A DNA stretch of 27,340 nt from positions 1-27,340 of IMG/VR virus record IMGVR_UViG_3300049217_000056; one strand, 5' to 3'. Shown here in pieces: positions 2,094 through 26,488 of this stretch (its first letter is position 1; every line of letters begins with the position of its first letter). The position numbers and the translations under genes were made by a program. Below the pieces are notes generated by a model, which was not told where the DNA came from, made no database searches, and saw only the letters and a list, made by a program, of their open reading frames with translations. The DNA comes from a virus.

Positions 2094-2833
2094 TATCTCC
2101 ACCTATTTTTACCACGCTTTCCGGGTGGCTTGCGAAAGGAGTAAGGACCGTCATGACCCTTAGCGGCAGCCAAAACCTTATCTGACATTTTCTCTTTCGG
2201 CTTCGGCGGTGCGCCAAGGACTCCGCTCATGAACATATAGACATCCTGAAAAGCGCTTTGCGGATCTTTCATTTTCATGAAACCGAAGTCTTTCAGTACG
2301 GGATTCAGACACAGGCTTCTATTGCCAATGGAAAATACCGGAGTCCTGAAGGCATGGAAAAGTTCCGCGTATCCGTCAAGTCCTTCCTGGCTGAAAAATC
2401 CTCTGGCGCCCTTGGCATGTTCAATGTTGTACCTATCCCACCTGGGAGAAAAGTAACTCTTATTGAAAGATCTGCGAATTTCTTCTTTGACGAGAAAGGA
2501 GTTGAATTCTTCCTCGCTATACAGCCCAACAGACTTGCCCGTACCAAATCGAGGCTTGAACAACACCACGGGATAGAACTGGCCGCAAAATCCCACAATC
2601 TCCTGGCCCAATTCCCATTCGCCGGTCACGCCACGAGCAAACATCATCCTGGAACCACCGATACGGGCCAGCTTGAACGACTTTCCACTTGGCAACCGGA
2701 CAGAATAATCAGAATACCAGTGAGGACGCTCGATCTTAAATTGTTCCTGAGAACGAAGGTACACGCACGTCTTATCTATTCCATAAATAGACGCCGTATC
2801 GTAGTAGTCGTGGAATCGACTCACTATGAGCAT
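2093..2833 (-). CDS. Conserved phage-type protein, unknown function
   Basis: A 246-residue soluble protein starting MLIVSRFHDYYDT, rich in aromatic residues, with the segment CVYLRSQEQFKIERPHW and a long central part with many Tyr, Phe and Arg residues. The N-terminal phrase (a short beta strand followed by FHDYYD) resembles a widespread but uncharacterised protein of large phages; that resemblance is from memory and needs a search. The C-terminal 40 residues are basic and Pro/Gly-rich (PPKPKEKMSD, RKPPGKRGKNRWR), suggesting a disordered nucleic-acid-binding tail. The start has a GGAG site 5 nt upstream. It overlaps the upstream endonuclease gene by 10 nt and the downstream membrane-protein gene by TAATG. 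Confidence 0.8.
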   Translation of the reverse strand: MLIVSRFHDYYDTASIYGIDKTCVYLRSQEQFKIERPHWYSDYSVRLPSGKSFKLARIGGSRMMFARGVTGEWELGQEIVGFCGQFYPVVLFKPRFGTGKSVGLYSEEEFNSFLVKEEIRRSFNKSYFSPRWDRYNIEHAKGARGFFSQEGLDGYAELFHAFRTPVFSIGNRSLCLNPVLKDFGFMKMKDPQSAFQDVYMFMSGVLGAPPKPKEKMSDKVLAAAKGHDGPYSFRKPPGKRGKNRWR

Positions 2834-3282
2834 GCTTTCTCCATATATCTCAGTGCATTGGTCAAATTCTTCTTGTTTTCACCCAATAAACCAATTGCCT
2901 GGTTGCATCTATTGCACAGCAAACCTCTGATCGTGCCGGTATTGTGATCATGATCCACGTCCAGGCGCCTGCGTAGCTTAGTGGAATCAACACCGCAAAT
3001 AGCGCATTTGTTTTTCTGTAGTTTTAACAATGCGTTGTATTGGCATAGGGTTATTCCATAAACACTTTTCAACAACGTATTTAGTCTGGAATCGGGATTA
3101 TTCTTAAGATATTTTCTGGTCGCCCTCTTGTGTCGCTCAGGATTCGCAGCGTATCTTTTTCTATGATATTCCCTGCCGCATTCCTTGCATAAATACGATC
3201 GACCAAAAGAATGTGTGGAAGATTTATAAAAATCCAAAAGAGATTTTTCTACTCTGCAGATAGTACACGTTCTTTTTCTCAT
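2824..3282 (-). CDS. Endonuclease VII-like HNH nuclease, copy 2
   Basis: A 152-residue paralogue of the 1360-1809 product. The order of motifs is the same: CTIC near the N-terminus and CKECGREYH as a zinc-binding pair, a basic helical linker (KRYAANPERHKRATRKYLK), then CAIC, a DVDHDHNTG catalytic core and LLCNRCNQAIG. The family cleaves branched DNA or specific target sites by a His-metal finger. The gene starts with TAATG overlap to the upstream 57-residue gene and ends inside the start of the 2093-2833 gene (10-nt overlap), so it is inserted cleanly into a coupled operon without breaking neighbours, as expected for a free-standing homing endonuclease. Its actual target is unknown. Confidence 0.87.
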   Translation of the reverse strand: MRKRTCTICRVEKSLLDFYKSSTHSFGRSYLCKECGREYHRKRYAANPERHKRATRKYLKNNPDSRLNTLLKSVYGITLCQYNALLKLQKNKCAICGVDSTKLRRRLDVDHDHNTGTIRGLLCNRCNQAIGLLGENKKNLTNALRYMEKACS

Positions 3283-3892: not shown

Positions 3893-4239
3893 GATTTACC
3901 TGCCTGTAAGTAGCTGTCGAGTTCGTAATCCAAATGACGACGATAGGAACGGGTCAGAAGCTTAAGCTCCGGAGTCTCCGCAGACTCTTCTAGTGCCTTG
4001 AATAAGATTCTGCCTTTGACCATCATTTCCGGAGTCAGCTGTCCCTCTTTGGATCTCCACTCTTGGAACCTGACCATCTCTTCCAGAAGATCCAGCTTGT
4101 CCATTCCGTCAATGAAATGCTGATAGGCGTCCTCGGCTGCGCATAGGCGAGGCTCCTTTGGACGAATGAACTTCTTTCTGCGATCTGCGAAATCAATCAC
4201 GTTATCCATAAAAGCACCGATACCATGTAGGAATCTCAT
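3889..4239 (-). CDS. Helical protein, unknown function
   Basis: A 116-residue, mostly charged and probably helical protein, with the segment FADRRKKFIRPKEPRLCAAEDAYQHF written here only in part: a basic FADRRKKFIRPKEP patch followed by alternating acidic and basic helices (LDLLEEMVRFQEW, LKLLTRSYRRHLDYELD). The annotated start overlaps closely with the preceding stop (2 nt between TAG and ATG), but a second ATG ten codons in (MDNVIDFADRRKK) is also possible. The stop overlaps the macro-domain start by ATGA. No family recognised. Confidence 0.68.
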   Translation of the reverse strand: MRFLHGIGAFMDNVIDFADRRKKFIRPKEPRLCAAEDAYQHFIDGMDKLDLLEEMVRFQEWRSKEGQLTPEMMVKGRILFKALEESAETPELKLLTRSYRRHLDYELDSYLQAGKS

Positions 4240-4241
4240 GT

Positions 4242-4451
4242 CTATTCAGACAGAACGAGCGCCCGGTAGAACCCTTTGTCGTCCTTCTCCACCTGGAGAC
4301 CAGCAAGCTTATTGGCTTCGATTACCCGAGTGATTTCCTTGTCCTTTTCATGGCCAATATCGATCCACAGGCCGCGCTCGAATGGACGGCGATACCTCTT
4401 CGCGTACTTGAGAACCTTTTCACCCTTTTCGTTCACATGTAAGTCGAACAT
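4242..4451 (-). CDS. 69-residue protein, unknown function
   Basis: A short basic/acidic protein beginning MFDLHVNEKGEKVLKYAKR with a WIDIGHEKDKE segment near the middle and a C-terminal DDKGFYRALVLSE. A GAGGG ribosome site lies 3 nt before the ATG, in the 9-nt gap after the previous stop. The next gene begins 2 nt after its stop, again suggesting coupled translation. The alternating pattern of strands suggests a small beta-rich fold. I do not recognise the family. Confidence 0.65.
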   Translation of the reverse strand: MFDLHVNEKGEKVLKYAKRYRRPFERGLWIDIGHEKDKEITRVIEANKLAGLQVEKDDKGFYRALVLSE

Positions 4452-4460
4452 AATCCCTCA

Positions 4461-5258
4461 CTATCTGTTGACGGTAATTCGATCGCTCAGATCATTCCAC
4501 CAATTGGAAATTGCAACGCATACCGACAAATAGCCCGTGGCAAAATCTGCAGCCTGATCAGTTTTGATATACCCTTCGATTGCATTGAGAAGACCTTCGC
4601 GATGACCGATCTCAAAGAACTTATGCCCTTTGATGTACTCTGCCGTGTACTCGTTCCGCCTAAGAGTACGAAGATGATTCTCGCACTTTTCAACCAAAGA
4701 GTCGAGGACGTAAAATTCAGGAATAGACGTGCTCTCGAAAGCCAGTATGGCTCCCGACTGAAAGGCGTTTGCTTTGGTTCTAAAGATCTTTCTCATGGCC
4801 CGCAGAAGAGTCCTAGTGACCTCTGAAGCCTCGTAATCATTGACATCGAAATCGAAGCTTAGCTTGTAGCCCGTGGAACCGCTGGAAGTGCTGGAAGTGC
4901 TTACCGTTTGATAATCCGACACTTCCTTACGCAGACACTTGAGCCATCCTCCCTGAAAGAATAGTCTGTATCCTATAGTGCGATACGAAGTCCAACTAGT
5001 AGAAGAGGTATTAGCATTCGCAATGAACGCTCCCTGCCAGCCAGTACCGTTTTGTATATGTACGCGCTGTCCAGGCGGAAAATTAGCAACATTTGGCAAA
5101 GTGACCGTTACGGCCCCATTCGCATCGGTGCTATGGATACCCGCCGAGGTGCCTTCTTCCCTGGCTATGACCTCTATTTCAATCGCATTTTTTTCTTCCC
5201 TGATCTCTATTCCGTTGCCATGCTCCGCAAACAGCCTATCACATGATAATATCGACAT
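4461..5258 (-). CDS. Two-part protein with beta-rich N-terminus, possible virion-surface or tail-associated protein
   Basis: A 265-residue product. The first ~105 residues look beta-rich and Gly/Thr/Ser-rich (GAVTVTLPNVANFPPGQRVHIQNGTGWQ written in part: GAVTVTLPNVANFPPG then NGTGWQGAF), a composition seen in phage fibre or baseplate domains. A low-complexity serine/threonine linker follows near residue 120 (STSSTSSGSTG), then a helical C-terminal part ending in ISNWWNDLSDRITVNR. The start ATG lies within the end of the upstream coiled-coil gene (20-nt overlap), with a GAAGG site just before it. No family recognised; the fibre-like reading of the N-terminus is inference from composition only. 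Confidence 0.68.
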   Translation of the reverse strand: MSILSCDRLFAEHGNGIEIREEKNAIEIEVIAREEGTSAGIHSTDANGAVTVTLPNVANFPPGQRVHIQNGTGWQGAFIANANTSSTSWTSYRTIGYRLFFQGGWLKCLRKEVSDYQTVSTSSTSSGSTGYKLSFDFDVNDYEASEVTRTLLRAMRKIFRTKANAFQSGAILAFESTSIPEFYVLDSLVEKCENHLRTLRRNEYTAEYIKGHKFFEIGHREGLLNAIEGYIKTDQAADFATGYLSVCVAISNWWNDLSDRITVNR

Positions 5259-7071: not shown

Positions 7072-8022
7072 CTATACCTCCCTGTATCTAAAAGTCCAGC
7101 CCTTGTGCTGTTTCCTATTTTTGTCACCCCTGAGTACTCGACTTATATTAGACGATTGCAATCCCAACGATTTCGCAGCGTCTTCGCAGGAATCGAATGA
7201 TCTTTCTTCCTTCGTGGCCAGATTAATAGCTGTCACAGGCTTACGTAGGGTTGGGTACAAATTTTCTTCTCTGCTTTTCTTTCTATTCTCAGAATCAAAA
7301 CCCTTTCTAGATTCTGACATGGCATCGCAATGTTCTTGAGTAAAACCAACTCCTTTTCTAGGATTGCCATTCTTAGCGAATTTCTCCTGAATATCAGATT
7401 TTGTCTTGCCTTTATGACACAAAGCGCAAAGAACGCGATGATTTTCTAAACCTAGCGAAGTGCCACCTAGTGTAATCGCCAAGATATGGTCCACTTCCGC
7501 CCTAATACTTCTAGGCAATTGTTCTCTGAAAACTCTCATCAACAATCTAGAAATTTTGGTTCTAACAGAAGCCGGATCTATGGTTTTCCTGTATCTGTTA
7601 AGATAGGCGAGAGCTTTTTCTATGTAAGGCCAATAGGAAAGGTCGCACAGTAGACATTTGAAATCCTGTCTAACCAAAAGAACGTGTAGCCCTTCTTCGC
7701 ATTGTGGCCTAGCCCACGCCAGAGCAGAAGTGACACATTCTTCCGAACACCATTTTCTCTTGTTTCCATCGAGAATACCAAGACACCAAACACAATTCTT
7801 GTTTTTACCGTCTAGCCTGATGATTTTGAAATCAGAAAGACGATAAGCCCTCTTTTTGCAGGACTTGGTCAATTCTTCTATTTGCGGATTCTTTGGAGGT
7901 TTGTACATTTTGAAAGGTGGGCCGTTTATAGTCGTCGTTTGACCCCGCGAGACGGTTAGGCGGTATTCTTCTGGCACCCACGAAAAGTTTGTCCCGTCAG
8001 CTACGTTACAGCCAGACTTCAC
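7072..8022 (-). CDS. HNH homing endonuclease with C-terminal NUMOD1
   Basis: A 316-residue endonuclease. Two CxxC pairs in the first half (CVWC, CSEEC) and CLLC near residue 120 look like zinc-binding elements. The HNH core is AEVDHILAITLGGTSLG followed by ENHRVLCALCHKGKT at about residues 178-210. The C-terminal ~55 residues form a NUMOD1-type DNA-binding helix-turn-helix (VTAINLATKEERSF, CEDAAKSLG, NISRVLRGD, GWTFRY). This architecture is typical of phage homing endonucleases. The start is uncertain: GTG at 8020-8022 gives the length above, and an ATG at 7906-7908 (MYKPPKNPQ) would drop the first 38 residues; neither has a strong ribosome site. It sits next to a 162-nt gap, unusual for this operon. 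Confidence 0.85.
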   Translation of the reverse strand: MKSGCNVADGTNFSWVPEEYRLTVSRGQTTTINGPPFKMYKPPKNPQIEELTKSCKKRAYRLSDFKIIRLDGKNKNCVWCLGILDGNKRKWCSEECVTSALAWARPQCEEGLHVLLVRQDFKCLLCDLSYWPYIEKALAYLNRYRKTIDPASVRTKISRLLMRVFREQLPRSIRAEVDHILAITLGGTSLGLENHRVLCALCHKGKTKSDIQEKFAKNGNPRKGVGFTQEHCDAMSESRKGFDSENRKKSREENLYPTLRKPVTAINLATKEERSFDSCEDAAKSLGLQSSNISRVLRGDKNRKQHKGWTFRYREV

Positions 8023-9999: not shown

Positions 10000-10626
10000 T
10001 CACCAGTCCTTTGACGCTTCAATAAAAGCTTCCAGTGACGGGTATTCTTTTGGAAGGCTGACTGATTTAGAATAGTTATCCTTCTCCCAGACAGGTCTGA
10101 CGTTTCGATACTTGAGGGCCTTCCTCAAGACAGCTTCCCCGGCCTTATAGGCGATTGAAAGCGGAAAGATGTGATCTAACACCCACGAACCGCGCCCAGG
10201 GTTGTCCCACGTCATGCCGGGCTGAAAAAGGGCCTCCAGGTGCGATCTGAGTTGGGCTGGGGTACAGCCCAGTTCTTCCTGGAAAACGTCCACCTTTTTG
10301 GTCCCCAGCGCCCACCATCTGAGTCGCGCGGGAGCTTCTACCTTGAGCTTGAAGAGTGCATCGGTCGCTTTCCGGGTTGCGAAATACTCGCCCACGTAGG
10401 TTGGGTTATTTTTGTGCCATTCATTCACTTGGTCTAAGATGGCCTGCTTGTTGGCGGGGTCATGGTACCGCGCCAACTGATAGCGCCGTTTTTCTACCTT
10501 GTTCTTGTTGTAGTAATCCCGGACTTTGTTGATGCACGTCGAACAATTCAGGTTCACCTTGCTGTTACGCTTGACGGCGAATTCAGATTCGTTTTTGGGG
10601 GTTCCGCATGTTTTACATCGTTTCAT
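10000..10626 (-). CDS. HNH endonuclease with N-terminal zinc finger
   Basis: A 208-residue nuclease. The N-terminal CKTCGTPKNESEF and CSTC form a zinc finger often found in phage HNH endonucleases. A basic helical linker follows (NKNKVEKRRYQLARY). The C-terminal catalytic part is the GMTWDN-type HNH: LGCTPAQLRSHLEALF, GMTWDN, WVLDHIFPLS, then KYRNVRPVWEKDNYSKS, where the Asp-His pair, the Asn and the final Asn-x-x-Lys form the active site. The usual His before the Asp in this family (WHIDHI) is Val here. An extended -10 box lies so close to the ATG that the mRNA may be leaderless. It is the first gene of the leftward arm. Confidence 0.88.
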   Translation of the reverse strand: MKRCKTCGTPKNESEFAVKRNSKVNLNCSTCINKVRDYYNKNKVEKRRYQLARYHDPANKQAILDQVNEWHKNNPTYVGEYFATRKATDALFKLKVEAPARLRWWALGTKKVDVFQEELGCTPAQLRSHLEALFQPGMTWDNPGRGSWVLDHIFPLSIAYKAGEAVLRKALKYRNVRPVWEKDNYSKSVSLPKEYPSLEAFIEASKDW

Positions 10627-10868: not shown

Positions 10869-11191
10869 TATCAGTTACTTAGTCCTGTGTCACGCCGAGG
10901 GACGACCTAGGTCAACGCAGACATGCGTCTGTCCTTTGGCACGCTTCGTGGATATGCAAGGAACGAGCCCTTGCAAGACGTATGCCTTGACACATGGGTC
11001 AGACCTAGCGCGGTGCGCCGAGTCAGACATGACCCAAGTCATTGATACCCTAGGACATGTGCGACACATGCGTCACGCATGAGTTAGCCTAGCACTGTCA
11101 GATTCAACCTATTGTGTCCCTATAGACATGCCATGCAATGCACTGACTTGAGGCGGGTTAGTTCAGCGCTTGCGCTAGGTTAGCCAAAGGA
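10869..11191. other. Palindrome-rich non-coding stretch
   Basis: No gene is visible here. The stretch is full of short inverted repeats: CAGAC/GTCTG near 10918, GCAAGG/CCTTGC near 10957-10974, TGGGTCA/TGACCCA near 10994-11036, and a perfect CATGCGT-C-ACGCATG near 11067-11081. The word GACATG or GACACATG recurs at least six times. It may be a structured RNA, an origin or a multi-site binding region. The sequence alone does not decide. Confidence 0.4.
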
Positions 11192-11300
11192 ATAGAGGCA
11201 TTATGTTTGACAGAGTCATAGAGGCATTATGTTTGACAGAGTCATAGAGGCATTATGTTTGACAGAGTCATAGAGGCATTATGTTTGACAGAGTCATAGG
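11192..11300 (+). repeat. Four tandem 26-bp repeats carrying ribosome site and ATG
   Basis: Four exact 26-bp copies begin at 11192, 11218, 11244 and 11270, with the first five bases of a fifth at 11296. Each contains AGAGGC, then ATT, then ATG, so a ribosome binding site and start codon (11203, 11229, 11255, 11281) are repeated. Because 26 is not a multiple of three, the first three starts read a 14-codon frame that stops at the second next repeat, and only the last start reads into a longer peptide. Each copy also holds a TTGACA word. Confidence 0.9.
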
Positions 11301-11385
11301 CATGGTATTGGCGTCTATTGCAGTTTGGTCAGTAGTGGCCGCTTGCGGACAGTTAATTGAGATTAGTCGGGTTTTCGGGGGATAG
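11281..11385 (+). CDS. 34-residue membrane peptide
   Basis: Read from the fourth repeated ATG: MFDRVIGMVLASIAVWSVVA followed by ACGQLIEISRVFGG. The first two thirds is a single hydrophobic helix with one Asp and one Arg at its start; the rest is a short polar tail. The ribosome site AGAGG is 5 nt upstream. Length and layout resemble small phage membrane peptides (toxin- or holin-like), but there is no recognised family. The first five codons come from the repeat unit itself. Confidence 0.55.
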   Translation: MFDRVIGMVLASIAVWSVVAACGQLIEISRVFGG

Positions 11386-11948: not shown

Positions 11949-11981
11949 AAAAAACCCTCGGTACAATTGTACCGAGGGTTT
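11949..11981 (-). terminator. Rho-independent terminator of the 12532-12008 gene pair
   Basis: A perfect 13-bp stem, AAACCCTCGGTAC with GTACCGAGGGTTT around an AATT loop (11952-11981), is followed on the minus strand by six T residues (11949-11954 read in reverse). It lies 27 nt after the stop of the last leftward gene. On the plus strand only three T residues follow, so it should act mainly leftward. Confidence 0.9.
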
Positions 11982-12007: not shown

Positions 12008-12193
12008 TTATGCCGCCTTGACTAATTTGAGCTTGGGCGATTCGCTCCGTTCAATAAGTAGTCTAGAGATAATAGACTGCTGCAGTGTAAAAACCAATCC
12101 AATCAAGCGTATACGTTCCAAGGTATCACATTCAGGATCGGCAGAGCGCTTGATAGAATACTCAACTATTTCAATCATTTCGTGGATTAACAT
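12008..12193 (-). CDS. 61-residue helical protein, unknown function
   Basis: The product starts MLIHEMIEIVEYSIKRS and is helical throughout, with a hydrophobic LIGLVFTLQQSIISRLLI segment and a basic end. The chosen ATG has GAGG nine nt upstream; the open frame extends 17 codons further up without a ribosome site. It is the second of two leftward genes that share a promoter region at 12620-12700 and a terminator. A role as a small regulator controlling the divergent switch is possible but not shown; no helix-turn-helix is obvious. Confidence 0.65.
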   Translation of the reverse strand: MLIHEMIEIVEYSIKRSADPECDTLERIRLIGLVFTLQQSIISRLLIERSESPKLKLVKAA

Positions 12194-12259: not shown

Positions 12260-12532
12260 TTAGACATGAGAATCCTCCCAGTTATGATCATCGCGTACAG
12301 CGAATAGGTCGCCATCCTGATACAATCGCCAGATATGACCATTGTCGTCGTGGAATTCTGCATTTCGGAGTACATCGTCCCATGCGTCCCAATATAAGTC
12401 ATTGTATGGATTAGACAAATCCTTTAAGTCAGCGGTATCCAAATTCCACGAGTCTAAATCAAATCTCTCGTAAAAATTTCTGGGAACATATATTCCCGCC
12501 GCTCCGTCAATTAAACAAATAATGGTATCCAT
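12260..12532 (-). CDS. Conserved acidic phage/plasmid protein
   Basis: A 90-residue, very acidic and aromatic protein. The central and C-terminal part, YWDAWDDVLRNAEF followed by HIWRLYQDGDLFAV, is a pattern I recall from many small hypothetical proteins of phages and plasmids (the WD.VL.NA...D..G..W.L.QDGDL block). Its charge and aromatic content resemble DNA-mimic proteins, but that is only an impression. The start has a textbook AGGAGG seven nt upstream. It is the first gene leftward of the three-operator control region. Confidence 0.75.
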   Translation of the reverse strand: MDTIICLIDGAAGIYVPRNFYERFDLDSWNLDTADLKDLSNPYNDLYWDAWDDVLRNAEFHDDNGHIWRLYQDGDLFAVRDDHNWEDSHV

Positions 12533-12627
12533 GGTATATTCCTCCTGGGAATTTTTTCTAAACTCTTAGAGTGCAACGCATAGGCCACAATTTCGTCAAT
12601 CTATTTGCCATGCGTCAACTAGTTATA

Positions 12628-12710
12628 TGACAATTTTTGTCACCTTATCGACAATTTTTGTCAACTATTTAATAATATTGAGTAAAATGGTGACAAAAAT
12701 TGTCACCATT
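12628..12710. promoter_or_regulatory. Three-site operator between divergent genes
   Basis: Three near-identical palindromes: TGACAATTTTTGTCA at 12628-12642, CGACAATTTTTGTCAA at 12649-12664 and, on the other strand orientation, GGTGACAAAAATTGTCACC at 12689-12707. The last extends to an 11+3+11 palindrome over 12686-12710. The first two are 21 nt apart centre to centre (two helical turns) and the third about 42 nt further. They separate leftward genes (12532 down) from rightward genes (12925 up), in AT-rich DNA with TAATAT and TATAAC words that could be -10 boxes. This is the layout of a phage repressor control region. Confidence 0.8.
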
Positions 12711-12775
12711 AATAGGCATAGTCATTGCATCTATTTCCGCACAGACTAGAAGAAATGAAATTGAATGTGTCCTAT

Positions 12776-12886
12776 GTGTCCTGTCAGACACTTGGGGCGC
12801 TCCGCGCCTGCCTGGGGCGCTCCGCGCCTGCCTGTGGCGCTCCGCGCCTGGAGGTGTCCTGTCAGACAGGGGTGTCCTGTCAGACA
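12776..12886 (+). repeat. Two kinds of short palindromic repeats
   Basis: GTGTCCTGTCAGACA occurs at 12776, 12854 and 12872, and a reversed copy lacking its last base pairs lies at 13455-13467. Between the first two copies, a 20-bp unit with the hairpin GGCGCTCCGCGCC is repeated three times (12791-12850). Both units are palindromic (TGTC-A-GACA and GGCGC-TCC-GCGCC). Related copies of CGCTCCGCGCC or its complement lie at 11703 and 14535. An open frame runs through the block but its translation is simple repeat and unlikely to be protein. Confidence 0.8.
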
Positions 12887-12924
12887 AGGGTGTCCAGGGC
12901 GACACATGTCCAAAAAGAGTCAGT

Positions 12925-13095
12925 GTGTCAAAACCCATAGTGTGTCGCGGCGAATTCTACTTTTATTTCAATGGCAATATTATTGAAGTTTGGCTAGGCC
13001 AAATAAATGGGTCCGAGTCGGAATTCGTACTAAGCCTAGATAAGAGTTATTTGCCTGATTTAATAGCGGGATTGACCGCATTAACCCCAAGATAG
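12925..13095 (+). CDS. Small FYFY...VWLG protein, paralogue of the 18562 gene
   Basis: The product reads CRGEFYFYFNGNIIEVWLG then SESEFVLSLDKSYLPDLIAGLTAL. It aligns over its full length with the 18562-18726 product (RGGFYFYMVADVLVVWLG, SESERVMEVNESYLPQIIAG). This conservation shows that the C-terminal 50 residues of a longer open frame (from 12700) are the real gene. The start is uncertain: GTG at 12925 or GTG at 12940; the paralogue begins with GTG at the same place in the alignment as the latter. No good ribosome site is seen. The fold is probably three beta strands and a helix. No function known. Confidence 0.6.
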   Translation: MSKPIVCRGEFYFYFNGNIIEVWLGQINGSESEFVLSLDKSYLPDLIAGLTALTPR

Positions 13096-13320
13096 GGCCA
13101 AGCCAAGATAGAATAGGCCGGGGCCAAACTCACGCTATCTATAGAGGATTGTTAGAATATTTTCGTTTTTATCATATAGAGAATTCTGTTAGGTCGCTCT
13201 TTTCTAAAGCCTAAAAACTATACATTCTATAGGCCAATTCACTGCCTCTTATCGGGCCGCAAAATCCCGCAATTCCCCAAGTAAAATTCACCGAGTAAAT
13301 AGATTTTATTGGACCCTCAT

Positions 13321-13374
13321 AGGTCAAAATTCACCCTATACCAAAAACAATTCTCAGAAGTGAATTTTTAGATG
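13321..13374 (+). repeat. Start-associated element, copy A
   Basis: About 50 nt: GGTCAAAATTCACCC, then CCAAAAACAATTCTCAGAAG, then TGAATTTTTAG and ATG. It shares its layout with copies at 13375, 18278 and 19752. Here the ribosome site is changed (CAGAAGTG in place of CAGGAGTG) and the ATG opens only four codons. Confidence 0.65.
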
Positions 13375-13433
13375 GGGGATGGTTAAAAATCATTCGCCTA
13401 ATTTTCAATTCCCAGGAGTGTTTTTTAGGATGC
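13375..13433 (+). repeat. Start-associated element, copy D
   Basis: GGATGGTTAAAAATCATTCG, then TTTTCAATTCCCAGGAGTG, then TTTTTTAGG and ATG. The ribosome site is intact, but the frame from the ATG (13430) is only nine codons (MLYNSTKLV). Confidence 0.6.
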
Positions 13434-13605
13434 TTTATAATTCGACTAAACTAGTCTGACAGGACACGATTAAGCCTTGTACACTGTCTAAAAGATATGC
13501 AACTTAGCGAAATAACGAAATAAGGAAAACAAGGGGTTAGCGTGGTACGATCGCTGCAAATACTATCTGCATGGCGCTGACGAATGGCGCTTGGAGGAGA
13601 AAACG

Positions 13606-18763: not shown

Positions 18764-19204
18764 ATGATTTACTTGCTGCATTTCTCAACGCCATTCAAAC
18801 ACGCTAAGCATTACGTGGGCTTTGTCGAATCGCCTGAGATGTTACAGGCCCGCATGGGCAAACACAGAAGGGGTAGCGGTGCGAAACTAATGAGAGCGGT
18901 ATCAAATGCTGGGATTGATTTTTTGGTTGCAAGAGTGTGGCCAAATGGGGATAGAAATGCTGAGCGCAAGATAAAGAAGAGAAAGGAAACGCCCGCCCTG
19001 TGTCCCGTTTGCAACATCAACGCGATGGCGTTAGCCACTGACATAGGCGAAAGTAAAGCCCTTGCAACTCTTGCGCCTACCAGTAAGTACGCCGCTAATA
19101 CTGGACCTGCTTATTCCAATGAGCCTAGCGGCATCGACAACGGAAGCGTACAGGTTGCCGGTTTCATTACAAATGATGGCACGACGATTAGGTTGGGTCA
19201 ATGA
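18764..19204 (+). CDS. GIY-YIG nuclease-like protein with replaced C-terminus
   Basis: The product (146 residues from ATG at 18764) begins MIYLLHFSTPFKHAKHYVGF, the GIY-YIG core strand pair, followed by LQARMGKHRRGSGAKLMRAV, VARVWPNGDRNAERKIKKRK and LCPVC. This matches a group of small phage/bacterial GIY-YIG proteins that end shortly after LCP.C. Beyond residue ~85 the translation (NINAMALATDIGESKALATL and onward) is antisense to a homing endonuclease gene, so the original C-terminus seems to have been replaced by its insertion. The ATG overlaps the stop of a 14-codon frame (18723-18767) that itself overlaps the previous gene; this may couple translation. Confidence 0.75.
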   Translation: MIYLLHFSTPFKHAKHYVGFVESPEMLQARMGKHRRGSGAKLMRAVSNAGIDFLVARVWPNGDRNAERKIKKRKETPALCPVCNINAMALATDIGESKALATLAPTSKYAANTGPAYSNEPSGIDNGSVQVAGFITNDGTTIRLGQ

Positions 19205-19689
19205 AAGAGCGCGTTTGTTCTTATCGGACAGCGGTTTGCCGCGTCGCGTGGCCGACATCCTTGCCGTGTCTCATTGGACGCAATGCGTCCTAGTTTAGCT
19301 GCGGTCATTTTTGCCCGTGTCTCAGCCGAATGCGTCTTTCCTGACATGGGAGGGACTTGACGCTGCCTAGCTTTTCTCATGGCCGATTTGGCCGCGTCCG
19401 AATGAAAGGTATTGTTTCCGCCAGTCGTTAAGTTATACCCATTAGGAGATAGAGTATTGAAATGTTTAATATAATTGACTTCTTTCTCATTCAATTCCGA
19501 GAGGGTACTGCAAATAGCCAGCGTTTCTATCTTAAACGAATGCTTGCCGTACTTGGCTATAGCACGACGCAAGAGTGTGCACGCGCTCCCCGGCTTGCGA
19601 TGCGCCTTCCAGCGAACAGCAAGAGATCGAGTAGTTTGGCCTACATATTGCATGCCATTAACGGTGTTTGTGATGAGGTAAACCACCAT
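19031..19689 (-). pseudogene. Frameshifted GIY-YIG homing endonuclease
   Basis: The first part (ATG at 19687-19689) reads VVYLITNTVNGMQYVGQTTR, the GIY-YIG motif, then RWKAHRK, NEKEVNYIKHFNTLSPNGYN with the metal-binding Glu, NLTTGGN and a NUMOD3-type linker (KTHSAETRAKMTAAKLG). In this frame it goes off at about 19255 and stops at 19198. The expected continuation is found in another frame: TRRGKPLSDKNKRALSL (second NUMOD3 copy), then AIICNETGNLYASVVDAARL and SISGVLTGRRKS, a NUMOD1 helix-turn-helix, stopping at 19031. One indel near 19250-19258 would restore a ~218-residue I-TevI/SegA-like enzyme. It may be a sequencing error or a decayed gene. It converges on the plus-strand GIY-YIG gene. 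Confidence 0.85.
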
Positions 19690-19698
19690 ACTCGCAAG

Positions 19699-19704
19699 AT
19701 TATA
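19699..19704 (-). promoter_or_regulatory. -10 box close to the homing endonuclease start
   Basis: A perfect TATAAT on the minus strand ends 9 nt before the ATG of the GIY-YIG homing endonuclease. No ribosome site intervenes, so the transcript would have almost no leader. The -35 region is not recognisable. Confidence 0.45.
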
Positions 19705-19721
19705 TCGCAAAGGAATTCTAA

Positions 19722-20315: not shown

Positions 20316-21203
20316 ATGAGCACGATCAAGGGTTTCAAGGCGATGAGTGCAGACATGGCCTGTAAAGGTTTCAAGTTCGAAGTTGGAAAAACCTACGAAA
20401 CAGACGCTTTAGCAATGTATTCAAAGGGGTTTCATTTTTGCGAAAACTTTTTCGACGTTTACAATTACTACCCCAGAGAATCGGCCACGATCGTCTGTGA
20501 AATCGAAGCACTGGGGGCGGTACAGAAAGAAGACGATAGGTCAGTCACCAACAGAATCAAAATTGTCAAGAAACTCAATGACAACGAGCTTCTAGAACTT
20601 TGGATTAAACGGACGAACAGCGGCAACAGGAACAGCGGCGACTGGAACAGCGGCTACGAGAACAGCGGCAACGGGAACAGCGGCAACAGGAACAGCGGCT
20701 ACGGGAACAGCGGCGACTGGAACAGCGGCGACTGGAACAGCGGCGACTGGAACAGCGGCTACGGGAACAGCGGCAACAGGAACAGCGGCGACTGGAACAG
20801 CGGCGACGGGAACAGCGGCTATTTTAATACAACCATCCCGATGTATTTGTTCAACAAGCCGTCTGATATGAAATATACCAAGGAATTCGAAGCTCGGATC
20901 AGGTCCTTGAAAGTCAAGCCAATTTTGGAATGGGTTTCTGAATCCGCGATGAGCGAAAAGGAAAAGACAGACTTTCCTTCCCACAAAACCACTGGCGGAT
21001 TCCTGCGAAAGACTGAGCGATACGACTGGCGATTCTTGACTGAAGAGGATAAGGCGTTTATCAAGTCGTTGCCCAATTTCGACGATGCCGTCTTCAGGCA
21101 AATCAGCGGCGTAAGTTTGTCGGACGACGTAGAAGTTGTGGTTAACGGCCAAACCAAGATGATTTCTAGGGCCAAGGCTAAAGAACTCGGACTAATTGAT
21201 TAA
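20316..21203 (+). CDS. DUF7666-like domain with NSG pentapeptide repeats
   Basis: A 295-residue protein in three parts. Residues 1-100 match a phage domain (DUF7666 pattern from memory): KGFKAMSADMACKGFKFEVG, TYETDALAMYSKGFHFCENF, VYNYYPRESATIVCEIEALG and NRIKIVKKLND. Residues ~101-170 are 14 pentapeptides, each NSG followed by two variable residues (DW, NR, YG, DG, YE, NG, YF), which form right-handed beta-helices in the related MPTR/pentapeptide-2 repeats. The rest is a charged alpha/beta tail. The 15-bp DNA repeats (20616-20825) keep the frame whatever their number, so repeat number can vary freely. Function unknown; possible surface or binding protein. Confidence 0.85.
   Translation: MSTIKGFKAMSADMACKGFKFEVGKTYETDALAMYSKGFHFCENFFDVYNYYPRESATIVCEIEALGAVQKEDDRSVTNRIKIVKKLNDNELLELWIKRTNSGNRNSGDWNSGYENSGNGNSGNRNSGYGNSGDWNSGDWNSGDWNSGYGNSGNRNSGDWNSGDGNSGYFNTTIPMYLFNKPSDMKYTKEFEARIRSLKVKPILEWVSESAMSEKEKTDFPSHKTTGGFLRKTERYDWRFLTEEDKAFIKSLPNFDDAVFRQISGVSLSDDVEVVVNGQTKMISRAKAKELGLID
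20616..20825 (+). repeat. 14 x 15-bp coding repeats
   Basis: Units of 15 bp beginning AACAGCGGC, with two variable codons, from 20616 to 20825. Their third positions are almost invariant, so they arose by recent slippage or unequal exchange. The unit length preserves the reading frame. Confidence 0.92.
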
Positions 21204-26215: not shown

Positions 26216-26488
26216 ATGACTCTCAAGAACAAGTATCCCCAGGATGGTCGCAAGGTGTTCGTGCGGTATGGAAACCGCAAGCTGTACGATATCGAAACCT
26301 CGAAGTACACGACGGTCGCAGCCGTCGCCAAGCTACCGCTCGGCAGCTTCGTGGTCTACGATCACACTTCCAAAGAGGACATTACGAACGATGTTCTTCT
26401 CAGTGCCCTGAACACGCACTTCTCAAACAATATCGAGGCTTTCGAGACCGTCAAGGCTGACCTCGTTACCCGGTTTCTCCAGAACTGA
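26216..26488 (+). CDS. PhaR N-terminal domain-like protein
   Basis: A 90-residue protein that corresponds to the DNA-binding N-terminal domain of PHA/PHB synthesis repressors (PhaR): VRYGNRKLYDIETSKYTTVA, then VAKLPLGSFVVYDHTSKEDI and TNDVLLSAL match the RKLYDT..S.Y.T....A......G..F.V.D..T.EDIT...L pattern. It is followed only by a short helix, so the C-terminal part of PhaR is absent. In bacteria PhaR represses PHA granule genes. A phage copy could act on host carbon storage or as an own repressor. AAAGGA precedes the ATG. Confidence 0.8.
   Translation: MTLKNKYPQDGRKVFVRYGNRKLYDIETSKYTTVAAVAKLPLGSFVVYDHTSKEDITNDVLLSALNTHFSNNIEAFETVKADLVTRFLQN

Follow-up and report, generated by a model that had tools for sequence, protein, structure and literature searches.

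Sigma-54-like promoter elements flank tandem palindromes shared with bacterial pilin loci in a 27-kb virus record

Introduction

Which protein acts on three near-identical palindromes located where gene direction changes in a phage genome, and which promoters would it control? The question is raised by a 27,340-bp virus record, analyzed here at its full length and referred to as the window, which is probably a fragment. A preliminary description had interpreted the palindromes as a divergent switch bound cooperatively by a phage repressor. As regulator, it had offered the 61- or 90-residue protein encoded to the left, a phage gene product encoded outside the window, or a host factor. Accounts of phage transcription usually center on host sigma-70 or on factors that the phage itself encodes. 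In the lambdoid CI/Cro switch, three phased operators lie between divergent phage transcription units.

A different type of control operates at bacterial pilin genes. PilR acts on sigma-54 promoters, with the consensus mrNrYTGGCACG-N4-TTGCWNNw, and controls pilA (PMC2725144), and the PilR sites of Pseudomonas aeruginosa have been described as TGT-N11-AGA with GTCT elements (PMC6058289). NmpR, an NtrC-like regulator of Myxococcus xanthus, binds GCGCA-N5-TGCGC as two neighboring sites (PMC11841059). In the literature searched, which left most subscription journals outside its coverage, we found neither the palindrome of the window nor any description of sigma-54 promoters of phages or of PilR in connection with phages.

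Results

Three helically phased palindromes in the window

The three palindromes were recovered as first described, with 0, 1, and 0 mismatches to the 15-mer TGACAATTTTTGTCA between 12628 and 12705 (Table 1). The centers of sites 1 and 2 are 21 bp apart, the two helical turns already recognized, and those of sites 2 and 3 are separated by 42 bp, or four turns, a spacing that had gone unmentioned. Site 3 is also the core of a longer, 23-bp palindrome, ATGGTGACAAAAATTGTCACCAT, at 12687-12709, centered on AAA. Matches to TGACAATTTTTGTCA with at most three mismatches number 8 in the record, compared with a shuffle mean of 1.16, and no shuffle reaches 8. A check for the palindrome elsewhere, proposed in the preliminary description, found no further copy with 0 or 1 mismatch in the 27-kb record, every other match having three mismatches.

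The sites lie between the leftward gene at 12260-12532 and a rightward block. The proposed position between divergent units holds, with the qualification that some 850 bp separate the sites from the first convincing rightward gene, which begins at 13591.

Table 1. Coordinates of features discussed in the text (distances are from site centers to predicted transcription starts)
Feature	Position	Strand	Details
Endonuclease genes	1360-1809, 2824-3282, 7072-8022, 10000-10626, 19198-19710		
Intrinsic terminator ending the leftward operon	11952-11981	-	13-pair stem; strong
61-aa protein, second gene of the leftward operon	12008-12193	-	predicted helical hairpin
90-aa protein, first gene of the leftward operon	12260-12532	-	phrog_21544; no assigned function
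Ribosome-binding site of the leftward operon	12541-12546	-	AGGAGG; from sequence; start ATG at 12532-12530
Sigma-54-like promoter, leftward	12587-12572	-	TGGCCTATGCGTTGCA; GG-N10-GC; matrix score 8.7
Site 1, putative PilR-class activator site	12628-12642	+	TGACAATTTTTGTCA; 0 mismatches; center 12635; -74 leftward, -105 rightward
Site 2, putative activator site	12649-12663	+	CGACAATTTTTGTCA; 1 mismatch to TGACAATTTTTGTCA; center 12656; -95 leftward, -84 rightward
Site 3, putative activator site	12691-12705	-	TGACAATTTTTGTCA; 0 mismatches; center 12698; -137 leftward, -42 rightward
Sigma-54-like promoter, rightward	12714-12729	+	AGGCATAGTCATTGCA; GG-N10-GC; matrix score 16.2

Candidate regulators encoded in the window

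Family searches of the window neighborhood agreed with the earlier observation that no helix-turn-helix repressor gene adjoins the sites, and they recognized no replication initiator beside them. Neither product of the leftward operon is supported as the regulator. The 61-residue product has no family match and is confidently predicted to form a helical hairpin rather than a helix-turn-helix domain, and the 90-residue product has no match to a DNA-binding family, its structure model being of low confidence. Relatives of the 90-residue protein (about 39% identity), annotated as hypothetical, are encoded close to a genome end in jumbo phages such as vB_PcaM_CBB, GAP32, and BF, and one viral contig carries a relative of the gene without the sites upstream.

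The one recognized DNA-binding regulator in the window is a 90-aa protein with a PhaR (PHB/PHA accumulation regulator) DNA-binding domain (PF07879, E 9e-12), encoded at 26216-26488 on the plus strand directly after rIIA/rIIB. A search of 50,697 phage records found no relative of this protein, whose presence may indicate a host that accumulates PHB. The TGACA-N5-TGTCA palindrome does not resemble the PhaR sites that are known.

The sites recur in viral contigs

In a scan of viral contigs, the exact 15-mer TGACAATTTTTGTCA was found in at least 120 viral stretches; among those listed, 33 have a second copy with at most 2 mismatches within 120 bp, often 19 to 23 bp away. Tandem GACAAWWWTTGTC pairs were present in 53 viral stretches, compared with 0 for a reversed pattern of identical composition. 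Many of the phage records have one cluster, and some large ones have several separate pairs with a spacing of about 21 bp. Several of the contigs are clear phages with terminase genes adjoining the sites, and the neighbors of most viral clusters are terminase genes, endolysin genes, or uncharacterized small genes, not initiator genes. The collection of tandem pairs was confined to those that are perfect or nearly so. When isolated phages were searched by BLAST with short queries, the only hits were single or degenerate sites; these were in Psychrobacter phage Y8A and Pseudoalteromonas phage ACA1 and had no strong sigma-54 element closer than about 3 kb.

At five viral loci (L022, L063 at 4561-4637, L065, L095, and L115), two near-copies 62 bp apart lie within the gene for an O-like replication protein, where they encode TVTTVVT-type repeats. 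These near-copies may be iterons or activator sites.

The same tandem motif precedes chromosomal pilin genes

Bacterial and archaeal genomes contain the tandem pair at 50 loci, many of them in Desulfobacterota, with others in Acidobacteriota, Moraxella, Hydrogenothermaceae, and further groups. With a strict pattern, a type IV pilin gene is located within 2 kb at 27 of the 50 loci, and no pilin was recognized within that distance at the other 23; pilin N-termini recur among the neighbors of the pairs. Several loci have a response regulator gene nearby, in some cases PilR-like and beside the pilin gene, that general NCBIfam models rank as NtrC-class without the curated cutoff being passed. In the region of the DNA-binding helix, the regulators at four loci (L169, L177, L196, and L202) have the pattern R..R.RL.. 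in common, and those at L176 and L205 have a different recognition helix.

Twelve carrier genomes contain one to three pairs each and 0 reversed controls. Within the phylum of one carrier, a perfect tandem pair was present in 1 of 198 sampled genomes, namely, the carrier itself. Perfect pairs are the strong tail of the site distribution. The motif flanks and the spacing modes (20 to 23 and 40 to 42 bp) are alike in phages and chromosomes, and the sequence of the window sites is that of the tandem motif upstream of chromosomal pilin genes. The chromosomal pattern is the trace expected of a specific PilR-class activator of pilin genes, an activator putatively assigned by gene neighborhood.

The palindromes can also be numerous. 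A dense array occupies 4071-4687 of an uncultured bacterium contig (L168), and one chromosomal cluster counted six perfect copies and 13 with mismatches.

Site clusters are associated with outward-facing sigma-54 promoters

For each cluster, we scored the 220-bp flanks on the outward-pointing strand, and the complementary strand of each flank served as the control. Removal of near-duplicates before counting left 42 chromosomal and 47 viral clusters. At a score threshold picked after the first loci had been seen, strong sigma-54 promoters faced outward at 32 of the 42 chromosomal clusters and inward at 3 (Fisher p about 7e-11); the corresponding counts for viral clusters were 29/47 and 2/47 (Fisher p about 2e-9), with 18 of the 47 having no strong promoter nearby. 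Viral sites with a degenerate partner showed 12 outward promoters in 35 cases versus 1 inward, and isolated exact single sites were at background (4/56 outward versus 5 inward). Relative to the predicted start, the nearest site center lies between -64 and -224 in the viral clusters and between -44 and -213 in the chromosomal ones.

The phage promoters aim mostly at small genes without known function, and several of them face away from terminase genes. At three loci (L030, L136, and L148), a divergent promoter pair has the sites between its members. A role of the sites at the promoter of the terminase small subunit was considered and dropped because the sigma-54 promoters face away from the terminase or terminase-like gene at six loci (L004, L089, L096, L132, L138, and L153).

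Sigma-54-like elements flank the window sites

The two elements flanking the window sites were scored with a matrix built from promoters of the other loci, which had been picked by the same score; the strand and isolated-site controls are independent of it. When compared with the sigma-54 consensus (GG-N10-GC near TGGCAYR-N4-TTGCW), the rightward element matches and the leftward one is marginal. The score of the rightward element is the third best of the whole window and falls among those of the reference promoters; it was equaled by none of the 148 distant control flanks and by 3 of the 191 inward ones. This element starts 8 bp past site 3, which is unusually close, and the next 850 bp contain no clear gene. 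The score of the leftward element was equaled in 0/148 distant and 7/191 inward control flanks and falls below those of nearly all reference promoters because its -24 part has a C where 71 of 71 reference promoters have an A. The surroundings of the leftward element are better, with a typical distance to the sites and AGGAGG followed by ATG directly downstream. Each predicted start has at least two phased sites about 60 to 200 bp upstream, all three sites in the leftward direction and sites 1 and 2 in the rightward direction, where site 3 is outside the usual range of upstream activating sites.

The activator is probably supplied by the host

A search of 34 site-bearing virus records found no Sigma54_activat domain, and the activator is therefore probably the host's. 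Sigma54_DBD was likewise absent from 31 site-bearing virus records, including contigs of 107, 132, 138, and 163 kb. On the simplest interpretation, activator and sigma-54 both come from the host, and a host factor is the candidate from the preliminary description that fits these results.

HTH_8 had two matches in 31 virus records; two site-bearing records, G004 and G008 (L217 and L218), encode a segment that matches the Fis-type HTH_8 domain and lacks the AAA+ activator domain. A phage protein of this kind could compete for the same sites.

Discussion

We conclude that the three palindromes are probably upstream activating sites for a PilR-class activator of the NtrC family, most likely the host's, that drives phage sigma-54 promoters. 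Activator dimers would bind the sites and oligomerize upon activation, and looping of the DNA would allow the activator to open sigma-54 polymerase held at the promoter. The target would be the leftward element, preceding the genes for the 90- and 61-residue proteins, the rightward element, or both. As a by-product, replicating phage DNA might titrate the pilin regulator. Counting against this interpretation are the low score of the leftward element, the position of the rightward one, the viral clusters that lack a strong promoter, the chromosomal loci with no recognized pilin, the differing recognition helices at L176 and L205, and the rarity of perfect pairs in the phylum of one carrier.

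This arrangement has parallels in known systems. PilS-PilR/sigma-54 control of pilA in Geobacter sulfurreducens (PMC2725144), P. aeruginosa (PMC6058289), and M. xanthus likewise combines a sigma-54 promoter with upstream sites at enhancer distance, and the window has the same tandem palindrome as chromosomal pilin loci. Unlike those at pilA, however, the window sites are phage-borne, precede small genes of unknown function instead of a pilin gene, and have no activator gene adjoining them; they also differ from the PilR sites of P. aeruginosa as described (PMC6058289). The NmpR enhancer resembles the window in being an inverted repeat with a 5-bp spacer, present as at least two neighboring sites before a sigma-54 promoter (PMC11841059). 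The geometry of GCGCA-N5-TGCGC is that of TGACA-N5-TGTCA, although the NmpR enhancer has another half-site sequence and another regulon and is chromosomal.

The lambdoid CI/Cro switch resembles the window in its three phased palindromes between divergent units in a phage, but no repressor gene is adjacent in the window, the flanking elements are sigma-54-like rather than sigma-70, and the window sites also occur at bacterial pilin genes. These differences bear on the reading of the palindromes as cooperative operators at divergent sigma-70 promoters, bound by a phage repressor or another phage regulator, which we consider unlikely. Helical phasing of palindromes between divergent units is what such operators would show, and the PhaR-domain protein at 26216-26488 offers a candidate regulator within the window; since the window is probably a fragment, a phage-encoded regulator could also lie beyond its ends. 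Site 2 shares sequence with one sigma-70-like element (12648-12676), which matches at 10 of 12 positions and on the plus strand only. Sigma-70-like matches in the region are barely more numerous than in shuffles (9 versus 4.3, sd 2.2). Moreover, no classical repressor family was found among 128 proteins adjacent to the 47 viral clusters, and the reading leaves unexplained the same tandem sites before pilin genes and their linkage to outward sigma-54 promoters. What survives of the divergent switch is thus a transcription control element with helically phased dimer sites between divergent units, and the phage-repressor operators are not upheld.

Two further explanations were weighed. The sites might serve mainly as decoys that titrate a host PilR-class activator, reducing pilin and superinfection by pilus-dependent phages, with the promoter-like elements being incidental. 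The viral clusters that lack a strong promoter nearby would suit this explanation, as would the perfection of the phage copies compared with the rarity of perfect pairs in chromosomes; yet a decoy would need neither the outward promoter found at enhancer distance in most viral clusters nor the separate pairs at several loci in large phages, and we regard this role as improbable. Titration as a side effect is compatible with control of sigma-54 promoters by a PilR-class activator. It is less probable still that the sites are origin iterons to which a phage replication initiator binds. Several repeat families in the gene-poor stretch beside the sites, the switch in gene direction, and the paired near-copies within O-like replication genes are in keeping with an origin, but the cumulative GC skew reaches its minimum near 8 kb, away from the sites, most viral clusters have no initiator as neighbor, and the sigma-54 promoters and pilin genes would be left unexplained.

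From the sequence comparisons, we suggest that this phage, like dozens of others unrelated to it, may borrow a host activator and sigma-54 RNA polymerase for the expression of small genes. Phage expression would then be tied to type IV pili, a host surface structure and common phage receptor. A more extensive version, which we consider possible but doubtful, is that unrelated tailed phages turn on early or accessory genes when PilS-PilR is active while their replicating DNA titrates PilR, leaving fewer receptor pili for other phages. The sigma-54/PilR model is directly testable, and tandem TGACA-N5-TGTCA sites about 21 bp apart with an outward GG-N10-GC element provide a signature for searches.

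Other features of the window

The window DNA has no meaningful similarity to sequenced phages, and a search for relatives of its DUF932 protein found none. The stretch of about 850 bp at 12720-13560 has no convincing gene and no Rfam match. It contains three 20-bp TGGGGCGCTCCGCGCCTGCC repeats at 12793-12852 and three GGTGTCCTGTCAGACA repeats (12775, 12853, and 12871), of which an inverted copy lies at 13454-13467. A 26-bp unit, TATGTTTGACAGAGTCATAGAGGCAT, forms a tandem array at 11176-11305. The phrog_14105 protein encoded at 20316-21203 on the plus strand has a central run of NSG[NDY] repeats, and genes for HNH/endonuclease VII-like and GIY-YIG endonucleases are unusually many for 27 kb.
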